From: Candidatus Hydrogenedentes bacterium CG07_land_8_20_14_0_80_42_17
GTDB lineage: Bacteria > UBA8481
NCBI GenBank assembly: GCA_002780065.1
Contig: PEWQ01000004.1
Coordinates: forward strand, 5,994 to 11,381
DNA: 5,388 nucleotides
Direction: 5' to 3'
Shown here in pieces: positions 796 to 5,388 of this stretch. A program made the translations under genes and the position numbers. The stretch's first letter is position 1. Every line of letters begins with the position of its first letter. The notes under the pieces are model-generated. The model had not been told where the DNA came from, did no database searches, and worked only from the letters and a program-made list of their open reading frames with translations.

Positions 796-2667
796 ATGTC
801 GAATGGAACTTTAGCTTTATCGATAGGCAAATCATCGCTCCAAGCGCATCAGCGCGCTCTGGAGACTGTTTCTCAGAATTTAGCGAATGCAAATACTGAG
901 GGTTATGCTCGAAAGGTTGTAAACTTTAAGAGCAACGCTTCCATAAATTTGCCGGACGTTCAAGGACCGGTTTATTTTTCACAGATAGGAACCGGTGTTT
1001 CGATCGGAAGAATTGAATCCGTTAGAGACCTTGTATTGAACGGCCGCATAAGGGATTTAGTGGGGCAGGAGTCTGAGAGCGAAGAGACCAAGAACATATT
1101 GGATCGAGTCGAGGCGCTTTTTACCGGAGAGGTAGACATCGCGAAGAGCATGGACGATTTCTTTTCAGCGATAAACGATCTTGCCGGAGCGCCGGACTCA
1201 TTGACAGTTCGGTCAGTCGTGAGAGCCCGCGGTGAAGAACTCACAAATCTTATCCGCTCCGCATCTGCAGGACTCGAAGAGATACGATCAGATTTATCGG
1301 CTCAAGTTTCCGACAAGGTTTCAAAGATAAATACAATTTCGCAGGAATTTACTCGGCTGAATGAAGAGGCTGGAGCGATGGCTTCAGCTGGAATGCCGAC
1401 GAACGATTACGAAGACAGAAGGCAGGTTCTTTTGGAACAGCTTTCCGAATTCGGAAATGTGCAGACTGTTTCAGGGCCGGCGGAATCTCTAACTGTTCTT
1501 CTTGGCGGACAGGTAATAGTGCAGGGGCTGCAGTCATTTGACGTCACGATAAGGAATGATTCATCGAATTCCCAATTACCTCAATTAGCGGTCGGCAACG
1601 GTCCAAATGACGTAATGACTTTCACGAGCGGAACTTTGAAAGCATGGTCGGATCTTCGCGATAATGTTTTGCCGGATATCATGGGAAATCTTGACGAGCT
1701 GGCAATTACTTTGTCGCAGTCATTCAACACGATTCACAGAACAGGGTTTGGACTCGATGGAACCACAGGTGTAAACTTTTTCGATTTAGGTTCGAGTGAG
1801 ACAGGGGAGACAAGGCCGTGGAGTATTCGCGGGTCAGAATTCGTTCCCGAGATAGACAAGCCGCTAGACGGAGACTCAAGCACAACTCAGCCCGAAAACT
1901 TTGAATTGAATCCTATCGGCAAAGGAAGTTTTATTTTGAACGGGCGTTCAATTACGTATGACGGAGCGACAGATTCATTAGAGGACATAGTTGCTCGAAT
2001 AAATTCGACAGGCACGGGAGTTTACGCTTCGATAACACCGGAAAACAGATTACAGCTCGATGCAATGCGCGGGAAGGATTACGTCATAGAGACAATGGCG
2101 GACAGCGGCGGAAACTTTTTGGAGCGGCTCGGAATTCTCGATGCCGACAAAGCGTATCCGCCTCCGAGTTATGTAAATCCTCCGACCTCGATCTTTTCAG
2201 GAACTGTGACATTGAGGCCAAAAGACAGTGCCGCATCGAGAATACAAATTTCGAGTGTAATAAAAAATAATTTAAATGCGATCGCGGCGGCGAAAGGTGA
2301 TGATCTCAGCGCGCCACCCGACGGTGTAGGAGATGTTTCGCGCGGACCTGGCGACGGAGGAAATGCAATTCTTCTCGCCGCATTGCGCGAGTCGAATACG
2401 ATGGAAGGCGGGACAGGAACATATAACGATTTTGTAATCGGCATGTTGGGAGAAATCGGAGTAGAAGCCGGCGCTGCGGAACGGTCACAAACGGCACTAG
2501 ATGCCCAGATAACTCAGCTGAAGTCGCGGCGCGAAGAGATACAGGGCGTATCCATCGATGAAGAGATGATTAATATGATCAAGTATCAGCGCGGATTCGA
2601 AGCCGCGGCAAGAATCATCTCAACGATGGATCAGGTTCTTCAGACTTTGATAGCGCTCGGCCGATGA
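796..2667 (+). CDS. flgK: FlgK, flagellar hook-associated protein 1 (hook-filament junction)
   Basis: The 623-residue protein is FlgK, which is secreted and forms the first junction ring between hook and filament. Residues 1-47 carry the rod/hook-family N-terminal motif, with NLANANTEGYARK at 28-40. Residues 145-220 form the helical D1 region, followed by TSGTLKAWSDLRDNVLP (277-293) and a long LAITLSQSFNTIHRTG helix (302-317). The C-terminus has GDGGNAILLAAL (519-530), a D0 coiled-coil region from about 560, and GVSIDEEMINMIKYQRGFEAAARII (584-608), all typical of FlgK. E. coli FlgK has 547 residues. The extra length lies mainly in the middle, where residues 374-447 resemble the flagellin IN module: GSFILNGRSITY, then a SLEDIVARIN helix, then GVYASI and a closing LGI. 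There is no SD. The ATG follows the flgN stop directly, suggesting translational coupling, and the stop overlaps the flgL start in ATGA. Confidence 0.97.
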   Translation: MSNGTLALSIGKSSLQAHQRALETVSQNLANANTEGYARKVVNFKSNASINLPDVQGPVYFSQIGTGVSIGRIESVRDLVLNGRIRDLVGQESESEETKNILDRVEALFTGEVDIAKSMDDFFSAINDLAGAPDSLTVRSVVRARGEELTNLIRSASAGLEEIRSDLSAQVSDKVSKINTISQEFTRLNEEAGAMASAGMPTNDYEDRRQVLLEQLSEFGNVQTVSGPAESLTVLLGGQVIVQGLQSFDVTIRNDSSNSQLPQLAVGNGPNDVMTFTSGTLKAWSDLRDNVLPDIMGNLDELAITLSQSFNTIHRTGFGLDGTTGVNFFDLGSSETGETRPWSIRGSEFVPEIDKPLDGDSSTTQPENFELNPIGKGSFILNGRSITYDGATDSLEDIVARINSTGTGVYASITPENRLQLDAMRGKDYVIETMADSGGNFLERLGILDADKAYPPPSYVNPPTSIFSGTVTLRPKDSAASRIQISSVIKNNLNAIAAAKGDDLSAPPDGVGDVSRGPGDGGNAILLAALRESNTMEGGTGTYNDFVIGMLGEIGVEAGAAERSQTALDAQITQLKSRREEIQGVSIDEEMINMIKYQRGFEAAARIISTMDQVLQTLIALGR

Positions 2668-4301
2668 ACAGAGTTTCTTTTAGCAGAATGGTAATGAACT
2701 CTCAAGATTATACTCGTTTGAATTCGGAGAAACTTTTAGATTTGCAGAGACAGTTATCAACAGGAAAAAAGATTGAGAAGGCGAGTGATGATCCTGACGT
2801 TGCGGCTCGTTCGAAGAGATTGCAGAATCGATTACGCCGTGACGAGCAGTTGGTTCGGAACATAGAAAACACATCGCACATGATCGGAGAAGCCGAGACT
2901 CAGATGAGCAGTGTGGTAGAACAGCTACAACGTGTGAGGACATTGACGCTTCAGGCAGTGAATGCGCCTATGACTACTGCCGACATGGCTCTCATTGCTA
3001 CTGAAATTAATCAGCAGTTGGAAGGAATGCTTCGAACAGGAAATACGAAAGTTGGTGGAAAGACTCTTTTTGGCGGAGCAGAAACTGATCAAGATGCTTT
3101 TACCGCTGCACGTAACGGAATTGGAGAGATCGAATCCGTTTCGTATCAGGGAGACGATGTAGAACTCGGAGTCGAGATGCAGGGCGTGATACCAATAACG
3201 TGGCCGGGTTCACGAATATTTTCAAAAGGCCCGATGATTTTGAAGAATACGAACCAGACTTGGAATGGATCGAGCGTATCGAATTATGCGGATCGGGAAA
3301 TATCTGCCGCTTTTGTGCCGTCTTCCGGAGTTATGGAAGGCTCGATGCGAATAAACGGAAAATTAATAAATTATGATCTCGATGGAAATCCTACTTCAGG
3401 TGAGGGAGACAGTCTTCTCGATATAGCCAGGGCAATAAACGATGGAGATGCCGGAGTGAGAGCTGAAGTATCAGGTTCTATGCAAGGCACTACTGGAGTT
3501 TCTACTCCTCTTCAGAATTTTTCGACAGAGTTTGTGGGTTTCCAAAATGGAACAATAAAAATTAATGGTTCCAGTATGAATGTGACGAATGAAGATACAA
3601 TTTTTACTTTAGCGAATCGAATTAATTCTCTTCAGGCTAATACCGGCGTGACCGCTGATGTTTACGATGCGAATGGAGAAAAGGTAGACGGTATTCCAAA
3701 TGTGCCTGAAGCAACTCAACCATTGTATTTGAGATTGAACGGCGGAGTAGAGATAGAAGACAATGGAAGCTCAGATTCGAACATCATGCAGATTTTGGGA
3801 ATCACTTCTACGCCGCCTGAAAATTCCGGAAGAAACCTTTCAGGGAATGTTATAGAAAATTATGCTATTAAAATTTCAGGCGACAAACCCGGCCCATTTT
3901 CGATAGAAGATGCTTCAGGAAGTATAGTGAAGGATTTAGGATTGACATCAGGAGTCGTATCCGGCGGTGATATCTTTTCGACATTAATTTCTTTACGCGA
4001 CAAATTACGTGAAGGAGATAGCAGTTATGCCAGAGATGCATTATTGCCCGAGATTGACAGCGCAATGGACTCGGTTGAAGTCTACCGCACCGAAGCGGGA
4101 GTCAGAACTAATCTTCTGGATACACGCAAATCGAGGCTTGAAGAGGTAATTACGAACAACACGAAGTTATTGAGCGATGTCGAGGATGTTGATTTAGCGG
4201 AAGTAATTACGGAATTGAGAAATCAGGAAAATACTCAAACCGCCGCATTGAGAGCTGTTTCAGATGTATTGAAACTAAGCCTATTGAATTATCTCGGATA
4301 A
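2664..4301 (+). CDS. flgL: FlgL, flagellar hook-associated protein 3, enlarged
   Basis: This 545-residue protein is FlgL, the second junction protein, which contacts flagellin. It is homologous to flagellin at both ends. The N-terminal coiled coil includes LSTGKKIEKASDDPDVAARS (31-50) and a long helix to about 126, then GGKTLFGGAETDQDAF (131-146). The C-terminal helical domain begins near 438 and ends DVDLAEVITELRNQ (508-521) plus a terminal LKLSLLNYLG. E. coli FlgL has 317 residues, so about 230 residues are extra. Much of this can be read as two flagellin-IN-like modules: residues 224-270 (SMRINGKLINYD, LLDIARAIN, GVRAEV) and 292-381 (TIKINGSSMNV, IFTLANRIN, GVTADV, closing LGI). The MNRVSFSRMV start is normal for FlgL. 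The ATG overlaps the flgK TGA by 4 nt and has no SD, so reinitiation is likely. A flagellin is the only alternative; position after flgK and the GGKTLFGG segment favour FlgL. Confidence 0.95.
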   Translation: MNRVSFSRMVMNSQDYTRLNSEKLLDLQRQLSTGKKIEKASDDPDVAARSKRLQNRLRRDEQLVRNIENTSHMIGEAETQMSSVVEQLQRVRTLTLQAVNAPMTTADMALIATEINQQLEGMLRTGNTKVGGKTLFGGAETDQDAFTAARNGIGEIESVSYQGDDVELGVEMQGVIPITWPGSRIFSKGPMILKNTNQTWNGSSVSNYADREISAAFVPSSGVMEGSMRINGKLINYDLDGNPTSGEGDSLLDIARAINDGDAGVRAEVSGSMQGTTGVSTPLQNFSTEFVGFQNGTIKINGSSMNVTNEDTIFTLANRINSLQANTGVTADVYDANGEKVDGIPNVPEATQPLYLRLNGGVEIEDNGSSDSNIMQILGITSTPPENSGRNLSGNVIENYAIKISGDKPGPFSIEDASGSIVKDLGLTSGVVSGGDIFSTLISLRDKLREGDSSYARDALLPEIDSAMDSVEVYRTEAGVRTNLLDTRKSRLEEVITNNTKLLSDVEDVDLAEVITELRNQENTQTAALRAVSDVLKLSLLNYLG

Positions 4302-4319
4302 TCGTGTAATTTACGCACA

Positions 4320-4790
4320 ATGACAACTTCAGAAAATAAGCGTTTGATAAAGACGAGGTTCGGCAAAGAAGTAGAGATCACTGATAAGAACCTTGTAACT
4401 ATAAAAGATGGCTTACTCGGATTCGAGACTTATGAATCTTATGCCGTGATACCGCACGGAGATGAAAGCCCTTTTTTGTGGCTTCAATCATTGGATGAAC
4501 CTCAACTTGCATTCATAACTATTGATCCTCGCATATTTGCTCAAGATTACGTACCAAATTTTTCCGAGAATGAATTATCTTCGATAGAATTGACTTCAAT
4601 TTCTGAAGCTGTACTTTTGGCGATTGTAGTTATACCGGACGATCCGAAATTAATGACAGCTAATCTTCAGGCCCCGATAGTGCTCAATGCAAAGAACCGC
4701 CAAGGCAAGCAGATGATATCTTCTTCTCAAGAACATAAAGTCAGACATTACATACTCGGTAAAAACGGCGAACCTCCGGAGAAGAAGTAA
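4320..4790 (+). CDS. fliW: FliW, flagellar assembly factor and CsrA antagonist
   Basis: The 156-residue protein matches FliW, a cytoplasmic protein that binds unassembled flagellin or CsrA. When flagellin is exported, FliW is freed, inactivates CsrA and allows flagellin translation. Family landmarks are TRFGKEVEI (12-20), [11 protein letters not shown] (28-38, compare the common F-x-GLPGFE motif), [21 protein letters not shown] (50-70, usual pattern wLQSldxPxlaFxvxdP), DYVP (76-79), a hydrophobic strand [10 protein letters not shown] (97-106) and [23 protein letters not shown] (111-133, usual pattern tvNLxaPivin...gxQ). Length is near the family norm of about 140-150 with a short charged tail. 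There is no SD in the 18 nt after flgL, so coupling to flgL or SD-independent initiation is likely. Its stop overlaps the csrA start (TAATG), which should keep the two antagonists co-expressed. Confidence 0.96.
4774..4781 (+). promoter_or_regulatory. Shine-Dalgarno of csrA within a palindrome
   Basis: CTCCGGAG is self-complementary and contains GGAG (4778-4781), placed 8 nt before the csrA ATG. It lies inside the last codons of fliW. It is the only clear SD for any gene from flgN to csrA. The palindrome is too short to fold on itself as a hairpin, and it matches the CsrA consensus only at GGA. Confidence 0.65.
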
Positions 4791-5038
4791 TGCTCGTTCT
4801 AGCTCGGCATTTGAATGAGTCGATAATAATCGGCGATGACATTGAGATTGTTGTTGTCTCTGTTCAGCACGATCAGGTAAAGCTTGGAATTAAGGCGCCT
4901 AGAAATATTTCAGTTCATCGCAAGGAAGTTTACGATGAGATTCAGCGCGAGAACAGACTTGCGGCAGATGCCCGCGGTGATCTGTCAAAAGGCGCGGAAC
5001 TGCTGAAGCAGAGATTTAAGGACGAAAAGAATCAATAG
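4790..5038 (+). CDS. csrA: CsrA, RNA-binding translational regulator of the FliW-responsive type
   Basis: The 82-residue protein is CsrA, a homodimer that binds GGA-containing hairpins in mRNA leaders and usually blocks ribosome binding. The core runs [15 protein letters not shown] (1-15), GDQV-like [11 protein letters not shown] (27-37) and [15 protein letters not shown] (41-55). Residues known to contact RNA, L4 and R44, are present. N55 is also present; in Bacillus subtilis CsrA this residue is needed for recognition by FliW. E. coli CsrA has 61 residues and B. subtilis CsrA 74. The charged helical C-terminal extension here (about 56-82) is like that of CsrA proteins from FliW-containing bacteria, in which the extension takes part in FliW binding. 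The start overlaps the fliW stop and has a good SD. Its expected local target is the flagellin leader just downstream. Confidence 0.97.
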
Positions 5039-5108
5039 CGCAAAAAAATTATTTTGTTTCGAAAATTGTAAATCACTTAAAAAAAGTTGTTATGTAAAAA
5101 AAGGAAAT

Positions 5109-5135
5109 TACCGATATAGAATATAAGGCTGATAA
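5109..5135 (+). promoter_or_regulatory. Weak candidate flagellar promoter for flagellin
   Basis: GCTGATAA at 5128-5135 matches 7 of 8 positions of the sigma28 -10 element GCCGATAA. The octamer 11 nt upstream (TACCGATA, 5109-5116) matches TAAAGTTT at only 4 of 8 positions. A second -10-like octamer, ACCGATAT (5110-5117), overlaps it but also lacks a proper -35. If the first is used, the flagellin leader would be about 190 nt. The flagellin gene is normally sigma28-dependent, so a promoter is expected here, but none is a convincing match. Confidence 0.25.
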
Positions 5136-5175
5136 TAGCCGAATCCAGTTTATTGGAACAGCAATACTTTTATTA

Positions 5176-5205
5176 TTCAGGCTGGTCCAGACTGAAAGGA
5201 GGTTG
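5176..5205 (+). promoter_or_regulatory. Near-palindrome followed by an orphan Shine-Dalgarno
   Basis: TTCAG (5176-5180) pairs with CTGAA (5192-5196). Inside, after a G-A mismatch, CT pairs with AG around a GGTCC loop. The overlapping sequence AAAGGAGG (5195-5202) is an excellent anti-SD match, but it has no usable start codon at normal spacing: TTG at 5203 touches it and is followed at once by TAA. Bases 5194-5205 can also pair continuously with 5251-5262 (12 bp including three G-U pairs). It may be a ribosome standby or decoy site, or a structural switch element. Confidence 0.4.
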
Positions 5206-5293
5206 TAAAAAAATAGGGTAAGGCTGGCGAGGCCAATGGAATTATCTTAGCAGTTTCCTTTCCTTATAAGAGGGTCGAGGGTTTCTAACTTGA

Positions 5294-5313
5294 TCCGGGC
5301 ATGGATGCCCGGG
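5294..5313 (+). promoter_or_regulatory. Candidate CsrA-binding hairpin 1 in the flagellin leader
   Basis: CCGGGC (5295-5300) and GCCCGG (5307-5312) form a perfect 6-bp GC stem, extended by a U-G pair, around the hexaloop AUGGAU. The core CAUGGAUG matches the CsrA/RsmE consensus CANGGANG at all fixed positions. The GGA (5303-5305) is displayed in an ANGGAN loop closed by C-G, the arrangement preferred by this family. The flanking pair is G-C rather than the A-U of the extended consensus. It lies upstream of the SD, like the first CsrA site of Bacillus hag. Confidence 0.7.
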
Positions 5314-5317
5314 TGTA

Positions 5318-5333
5318 GGTTCAAGGAGGAACC
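5318..5333 (+). promoter_or_regulatory. Candidate CsrA-binding hairpin 2 with the flagellin Shine-Dalgarno in its loop
   Basis: GGTTC (5318-5322) and GAACC (5329-5333) form a perfect 5-bp stem around AAGGAG. UCAAGGAGGA (5321-5330) matches all positions of the extended CsrA/RsmE consensus (A/U)CANGGANG(U/A), again as an ANGGAN hexaloop closed by C-G. The loop and adjacent base contain AGGAGG (5324-5329), the SD, 6 nt before the flagellin ATG. CsrA bound here would directly block the 30S subunit. The GGA lies 22 nt from the GGA of hairpin 1, a spacing that one CsrA dimer could bridge. Confidence 0.75.
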
Positions 5334-5335
5334 CC

Positions 5336-5388
5336 ATGGCAGGATTTAGAGTAGTAACAAATGTGCCCGCAATTTTTTCTCAACGGCA
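5336..5388 (+). CDS. Flagellin, N-terminus only (cut off by window edge)
   Basis: Seventeen codons are visible, reading MAGFRVVTNVPAIFSQR. This fits the flagellin N-terminal signature (FR-[IV]-x-TNV-x-A-[LI]-x-x-QR, compare MALRINTNVAALNAQR). The N-terminal D0 segment carries the export information and later packs in the filament core. A strong SD (AGGAGG) lies 6 nt upstream. Position directly after csrA matches hag in Bacillus. The first residues differ from the commonest MxFRINTN form (VVTN instead of INTN). With only 17 residues I cannot tell which flagellin paralogue this is, or whether it is the major filament subunit. Confidence 0.85.
   Translation, partial: MAGFRVVTNVPAIFSQR

Follow-up and report, generated by a model that had tools for sequence, protein, structure and literature searches.

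In the flaA mRNA of Campylobacter jejuni, the protein CsrA binds two GGA hexaloops that lie 21 nt apart, the second of them over the ribosome-binding site, as seen by footprinting (Dugar et al. 2016, PMC4894983). Mutations in these loops raise FlaA and weaken CsrA binding four- to tenfold, and the optimal spacing for bridging by a CsrA dimer is given as 18 nt (PMC4894983). In Bacillus subtilis, according to PMC7652899, CsrA uses two sites in the hag leader, one of which covers the Shine-Dalgarno sequence (SD), and FliW released upon Hag export antagonizes CsrA; the sites are placed at A51-A55 (BS1) and C75-G82 (BS2) by Yakhnin 2007 and Mukherjee 2011, as cited in PMC7652899 and PMC8523840. The contact of FliW with CsrA requires V51 and N55 of the latter, which adjoin the RNA-binding residue R44 (PMC7829508). 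FliW-CsrA control has also been described for fliC of Clostridioides difficile, with predicted sites BS1 TGACAAGGATGT and BS2 CTAAGGAGGG upstream of the flagellin (PMC8523840); these were predicted by analogy with hag, and no hairpin analysis was found in the main text of that paper. Finally, in flaB3 and flaB4 of Leptospira a hexaloop predicted 6-7 nt 5' of the start codon presents a GGA, and their CsrA interaction was seen in gel shifts (PMC8668096).

The stretch of DNA analyzed here (5,388 nt, hereafter the window) lies at one end of contig C17 of a draft genome of Candidatus Hydrogenedentes (G000; 2.39 Mb in 207 contigs), and encodes, in this order, a flgN-like gene, flgK, flgL, fliW, csrA and a flagellin. 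In B. subtilis, too, fliW-csrA presumably adjoins flgL, near flagellin. The flgN-like call is weak and below the Pfam cut-off. All the following genes lie on the + strand: flgK (796..2667; PF22638 FlgK_D1, E=4.9e-50); flgL, encoding the hook-filament junction protein (2664..4301), which was assigned by its Flagellin_N and Flagellin_C matches and the order flgK-flgL-fliW-csrA; fliW (4320..4790; 156 aa; PF02623, E=5.3e-37); and csrA (4790..5038; 82 aa; PF02599, E=4e-25), the only csrA found in this genome. The sequence-only reading had set csrA and fliW immediately upstream of flagellin, and the Pfam assignments agree. The encoded CsrA has a C-terminal extension and carries R44, I51 and N55 at the positions assigned by PMC7829508. 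A gap of 297 nt separates csrA from the flagellin gene (MAGFRVVTNVPAIFSQR..., 5336..5388, + strand, ATG at 5336-5338), of which 17 codons are visible before the contig ends together with the window (11381); its identity follows from a syntenic full-length ortholog (MAGFRINTNIPAIFSQRQLG...) in a second genome, G001. A candidate sigma-28-type promoter, TAAA-N12-CCGATAT, was recognized by sequence alone at 5095..5117 (+), with a spacer shorter than usual, and GCCGATAA/CCGATAA boxes also occur upstream of the paralogs L008, L009, L015 and L017. The flagellin leader may be about 210 nt long, which would place both hairpins described below within the transcript. Two further elements were observed in the window. 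Positions 3-200 on the - strand encode the start of an FmdB-like zinc-ribbon protein (MPIYEYLCRKGHHFEKMQ...), divergent from the flagellar operon. Within the leader, a long stem-loop is predicted at 5194-5263, in which GAAAGGAGG (5194-5202) pairs with CAGUUUCCUUUCC (5251-5263); it holds a second SD-like AAAGGAGG with no start codon at normal spacing, and the corresponding leader in G001 also carries GAAAGGAGG and CGCCUUUCC.

Immediately before the flagellin start the + strand can form two adjacent hairpins, at the coordinates originally proposed to within a base pair of stem. The upstream hairpin, HP1 (5293..5314), is a putative anchor site for CsrA with the loop AUGGAU at 5301-5306 (GGA 5303-5305) and a stem of 8 bp (5293-5300 with 5307-5314), made up of 6 G-C pairs, a U-G and an A-U. 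The downstream hairpin, HP2 (5318..5333), has a stem of 5 bp (5318-5322 with 5329-5333) and the loop AAGGAG at 5323-5328 (GGA 5325-5327), which falls inside the flagellin SD, AAGGAGG (5323..5329), 6 nt 5' of the ATG. A C-G pair closes both ANGGAN hexaloops, both meet the CANGGANG core, and the two are the only CANGGANG hairpins with a stem of at least 5 bp on either strand of the window. The claim that HP2 matches a full 10-position consensus was overstated: it agrees with the SELEX consensus RUACARGGAUGU at 9/12 positions, and HP1 at 8/12. The GGA motifs are 22 nt apart, within the range that one CsrA dimer can bridge, judging from the 21 nt of flaA. A role in transcription termination was considered and rejected, as neither hairpin has a T-run on its 3' side and the + strand shows no terminator in 4300-5388. 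An Rfam scan of 4950-5388 with 4227 covariance models gave nothing above threshold, the best result being a sub-threshold CRISPR-repeat match at HP1 on the other strand (E=1.8).

This arrangement closely parallels that of C. jejuni flaA, with two adjacent stem-loops, GGA hexaloops resembling CANGGANG, the second hexaloop over the ribosome-binding site, a sigma-28-transcribed flagellin (here with a candidate promoter only) and FliW as antagonist (here a putative one); compensatory changes seen among Campylobacter species likewise have their counterpart among the leaders described below. The two differ in that C. jejuni has fliW apart from csrA and a leader of 45 nt, whereas the window has the order fliW-csrA-flagellin and what may be a longer leader, in which an extended SD-pairing helix is predicted to compete with HP2. 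The hag leader shares the two sites, one over the SD, and presumably the FliW partner-switch, the comparison being one of site positions. In Leptospira flaB3 and flaB4, by contrast, a single site is described and no bridging pair, and the effects of CsrA are opposite in two Leptospira species.

Searches at the levels of family, class and phylum yielded one other genome, G001, of the same order and another family, and the survey described below therefore took a wider set. No relative emerged when named genomes were scanned with the FliW protein by itself; an alignment scan of named genomes gave two loci, one on contig RFFU01000110.1 of a Candidatus Hydrogenedentota MAG and one in a distant 'Deltaproteobacteria' MAG, the latter with no flagellin just downstream and left out of later comparison. 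G001 retains the order flgL-fliW-csrA-flagellin, with 50% identity to the window in FliW and 67% in CsrA. The leader of its ortholog (L013) retains both GGA loops, 23 nt apart as against 22 nt in the window, on different stems: HP1 is GCCGAAC-AAGGAC-GUUCGGC, its stem altered by paired substitutions, and HP2 is UUC-AAGGAG-GAA with outer G-C pairs past a bulge. Genome G000 has five further filament-type flagellins, three of which show an SD hairpin with the same type of loop on unrelated stems, namely L009 (CAAACC-AAGGAG-GGUUUG), L008 (ACGCC-AAGGAG-GGCGU) and L005 (UCACC-ACGGAG-GGUGA, which also has an upstream hairpin AAUGUC-AGGGAU-GACAUU). Comparable hairpins precede G001 flagellins in L012 (CACC-AAGGAG-GGUG), L015 (GGCGAC-ACGGAG-GUCGCC, followed by an ACACGGAGGU SD site) and L017 (CGUCC-ACGGAA-GGGCG), while inspection of the leaders L006, L007, L014, L016 and L018 revealed no clear hairpin forms. 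Thus the GGA loops are conserved, both in the ortholog and the SD loop in paralogs, on stems that differ and covary.

Our survey drew on 52 genomes, each group of them from a different family and almost all from beyond the phylum, and covered 121 flagellin leaders; its breadth can be counted in families, though not in phyla. An HP1-type hairpin was defined as an ANGGAN loop on a stem of at least 4 bp at -65 to -22, and an HP2-type hairpin as one at -20 to -9. In the 109 leaders from the 43 genomes with CsrA, HP1-type hairpins were present in 40 and HP2-type hairpins in 32, as against flank-shuffle means of 1.17 (maximum 4) and 1.52 (maximum 5), respectively. Sliding the loop register by 1-4 nt left 0-4 hairpins in the survey, and permuted loop motifs gave 0-1. 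Among 163 non-flagellin genes with SDs on the fetched loci, HP1 was absent and HP2 occurred twice, once at a csrA gene and once at a second reading frame that adjoins the start of a flagellin. At least one hairpin was found in 32/43 genomes with CsrA versus 2/9 without clear CsrA (p=0.005), this control being small (12 genes) and including G006, whose CsrA match is a 23-residue fragment; about a quarter of the surveyed genomes with CsrA have neither hairpin at the 4-bp threshold. Similarly, CANGGANG occurs at -65..-22 in 53/111 leaders of genomes with FliW and in 0/10 of those lacking it (p=0.0023). All surveyed hairpin pairs except one space their GGA motifs 17-33 nt apart. Some individual genomes stand out: the flagellated G079 and G118 have FliW and no detected CsrA, G118 still with CsrA-like hairpins (its csrA may be missing from an incomplete assembly), and G136 has nine csrA matches and no FliW, and the single leader tested from its flagellins lacks such hairpins.

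The sequence-only reading had suggested an alignment of orthologous leaders for covariation, and this comparison bore it out across many families, with stems covarying around constant GGA loops. Sites were chosen on loop sequence alone, which avoids selection for stems. Among 52 HP1 sites (CANGGANG), 81.1% of cells were paired, compared with 51.8% after shuffling and no more than 43.6% after sliding (0/500 shuffles as good), and the covariation score was 0.670 versus 0.177; stem pairs 2-6 beat 2000/2000 shuffles, and only three shuffles were not beaten by pair 7. In the 107 HP2 sites (ANGGAN close to the SD), covariation is seen at pairs 1-3 (0/2000 shuffles) and more weakly at pairs 4-5, which beat nearly all, and HP2 is therefore typically a stem of 3-5 bp. 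Nineteen leaders with both hairpins were aligned (A3); 92.9% of their cells are paired, a figure biased by their being chosen partly on stems. The covariance model built from this alignment matched 62 of 386 genomes at E<=0.01, and among the 30 loci fetched, 15/15 of those from genomes outside the training set directly precede a flagellin, in ten untrained families.

Other loci with hairpins of this type, or with a match to the model, were also encountered. In G001, L187 (C72:15500-15542) is a perfect two-hairpin putative CsrA site (GGCACC-AGGGAG-GGUGCC and GAUUAC-AAGGAG-GUAAUC), which is located a short way 3' of an FmdB-like zinc-ribbon gene and ahead of an open frame of 63 aa that lacks any Pfam match; it is possibly a new CsrA target or a sponge. 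A weak model match (E=0.09) in the same genome, L189 (C106:111938-111982), lies upstream of a DUF5610 gene whose SD is AAGGAG. The csrA gene of G010, a genome with csrA and fliW and no flagellin match, has its SD in a hairpin of this kind (L034; GCC-AAGGAG-GGC), which suggests autoregulation of CsrA there.

In light of the hairpins, their covariation, the linkage to csrA and fliW, the wide conservation and the co-occurrence with FliW and CsrA, all of which are observed, we consider it highly probable that the leader functions as a cis-acting operator through which CsrA controls translation of the flagellin mRNA. The proposal of a CsrA/FliW-controlled leader thereby gains support at the level of sequence, from the conserved loops, the covarying stems and the retention of R44, I51 and N55 in CsrA. 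By analogy with B. subtilis and C. jejuni, CsrA binding, bridging, repression and relief by FliW would operate in the Hydrogenedentes leader as follows. One CsrA dimer, anchored on the stable HP1 hexaloop, would bridge the 22 nt to HP2 and bind its ANGGAG hexaloop; this loop being the SD, its occupancy would bar the 30S subunit and flagellin synthesis would stop. After completion of the hook, export of flagellin would free FliW, which would bind CsrA on its C-terminal side, near I51/N55, and release the leader.

Binding of CsrA could in principle serve another end, with the hairpins acting mainly as a sponge that titrates CsrA, or as an activating or stabilizing site, rather than as a repressor site. 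Indeed, the flaA leader of C. jejuni titrates CsrA besides being repressed by it (PMC4894983), and overexpression of CsrA raised the levels of flaB mRNAs in L. interrogans, so that repression is not guaranteed (PMC8668096). Nevertheless, CsrA bound at HP2 would cover the SD and should thereby prevent initiation, and sites of the same layout repress in both B. subtilis (PMC7652899) and C. jejuni (PMC4894983); hence we regard a predominantly titrating or activating role as unlikely.

The folding predictions raise a different issue. In 5270-5345, HP1 is predicted with a pair probability of 1.00, as in every context, whereas HP2 has a probability of about 0, as it also does in longer pieces of the leader, and approaches 1 only in a fold of 5290-5345 by itself. 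Hence the earlier description of both sites as unusually well formed stands for HP1, which is very stable, and fails for HP2, for which a longer helix is a competitor. The minimum-energy fold lacks HP2 because a candidate anti-SD arm, GGGUUUCUAACUUGA (5279..5293, +), pairs with 5321-5334 and buries the SD; forcing HP2 costs 5-6 kcal/mol relative to this helix. In the same fold the A and U of the HP1 loop can pair to leave a UGGA tetraloop, at an opening cost of 0.7 kcal/mol. Exclusion of HP2 by a longer helix is likewise predicted for the ortholog in G001, whose upstream arm GAGGGUUCC aligns with GAGGGUUUC of the window leader. In the paralogs L005, L008, L009 and L012 the HP2 probability is 0.8-1.0; it is low in many of the surveyed leaders too.

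Such predictions might be taken to mean that the SD hairpin, the helix 5279-5293 x 5321-5334, or both limit translation by structure alone, in an intrinsic or temperature-dependent manner, with CsrA uninvolved or secondary, and the helix, as the predicted minimum-energy fold that pairs the SD and recurs in G001, is an argument for it. This would leave unexplained why HP1, situated away from the SD, has an invariant CANGGANG core, as well as the exact ANGGAN register and the co-occurrence with FliW and CsrA. Moreover, the anti-SD arm is mildly unusual and not significant by itself (41/500 and 68/500 shuffles of the upstream sequence were as good), and as part of a general design it was rejected, only 1/19 leaders beating all shuffles. 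Control by structure alone accordingly appears slightly less plausible still than titration or activation. Under the CsrA operator reading, the bound form would need HP2 instead of the longer helix, and CsrA binding may help to select it. Either the folding energies mislead, or the window and G001 orthologs would switch between an SD-paired and a CsrA-bound state, a two-state switch that these models weakly suggest. Chance, by which an SD flanked by a short palindrome happens to lie beside an unrelated stable hairpin, can draw on the mere 5 bp of HP2 and on GGA being inherent in SDs, yet it is practically negligible given that random sequence is expected to yield only 0.037 CANGGANG hairpins with stems of at least 5 bp per strand of the window, that stems are compensatory in the ortholog and paralogs, and that the survey nulls fall far below the observed counts.

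As a single locus, the leader belongs to a known kind, that of Campylobacter flaA and Bacillus hag, and what is new is the breadth: the two-hairpin design recurs on entirely different stems before flagellins in many distantly related bacteria. A literature search confined to open-licence papers, which is no proof of novelty, returned no report of such a leader structure across phyla. We lean somewhat towards the view that it represents an uncatalogued and very widespread class of cis-regulatory RNA, in which an anchor CANGGANG hairpin about 24-55 nt 5' of the start is combined with an SD-in-hexaloop hairpin, the register being kept across most flagellated bacteria with FliW and CsrA while every stem base changes; in this phylum it would be joined to an SD-pairing arm as a two-state switch.

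Global regulation in gammaproteobacteria is what CsrA is best known for, and arguments about its ancestral role have drawn mainly on the distribution of genes and on a few model species. If the class is as widespread as proposed, flagellin homeostasis would be the likely ancestral job of CsrA. The present analysis follows the target RNA, and not just the proteins, by its covariation across dozens of families, among them a candidate phylum (represented by two genomes). The resulting covariance model can pick out flagellins under probable CsrA control, and perhaps further targets of CsrA, directly from sequence, and it makes the question of the ancestral function testable on the RNA itself.
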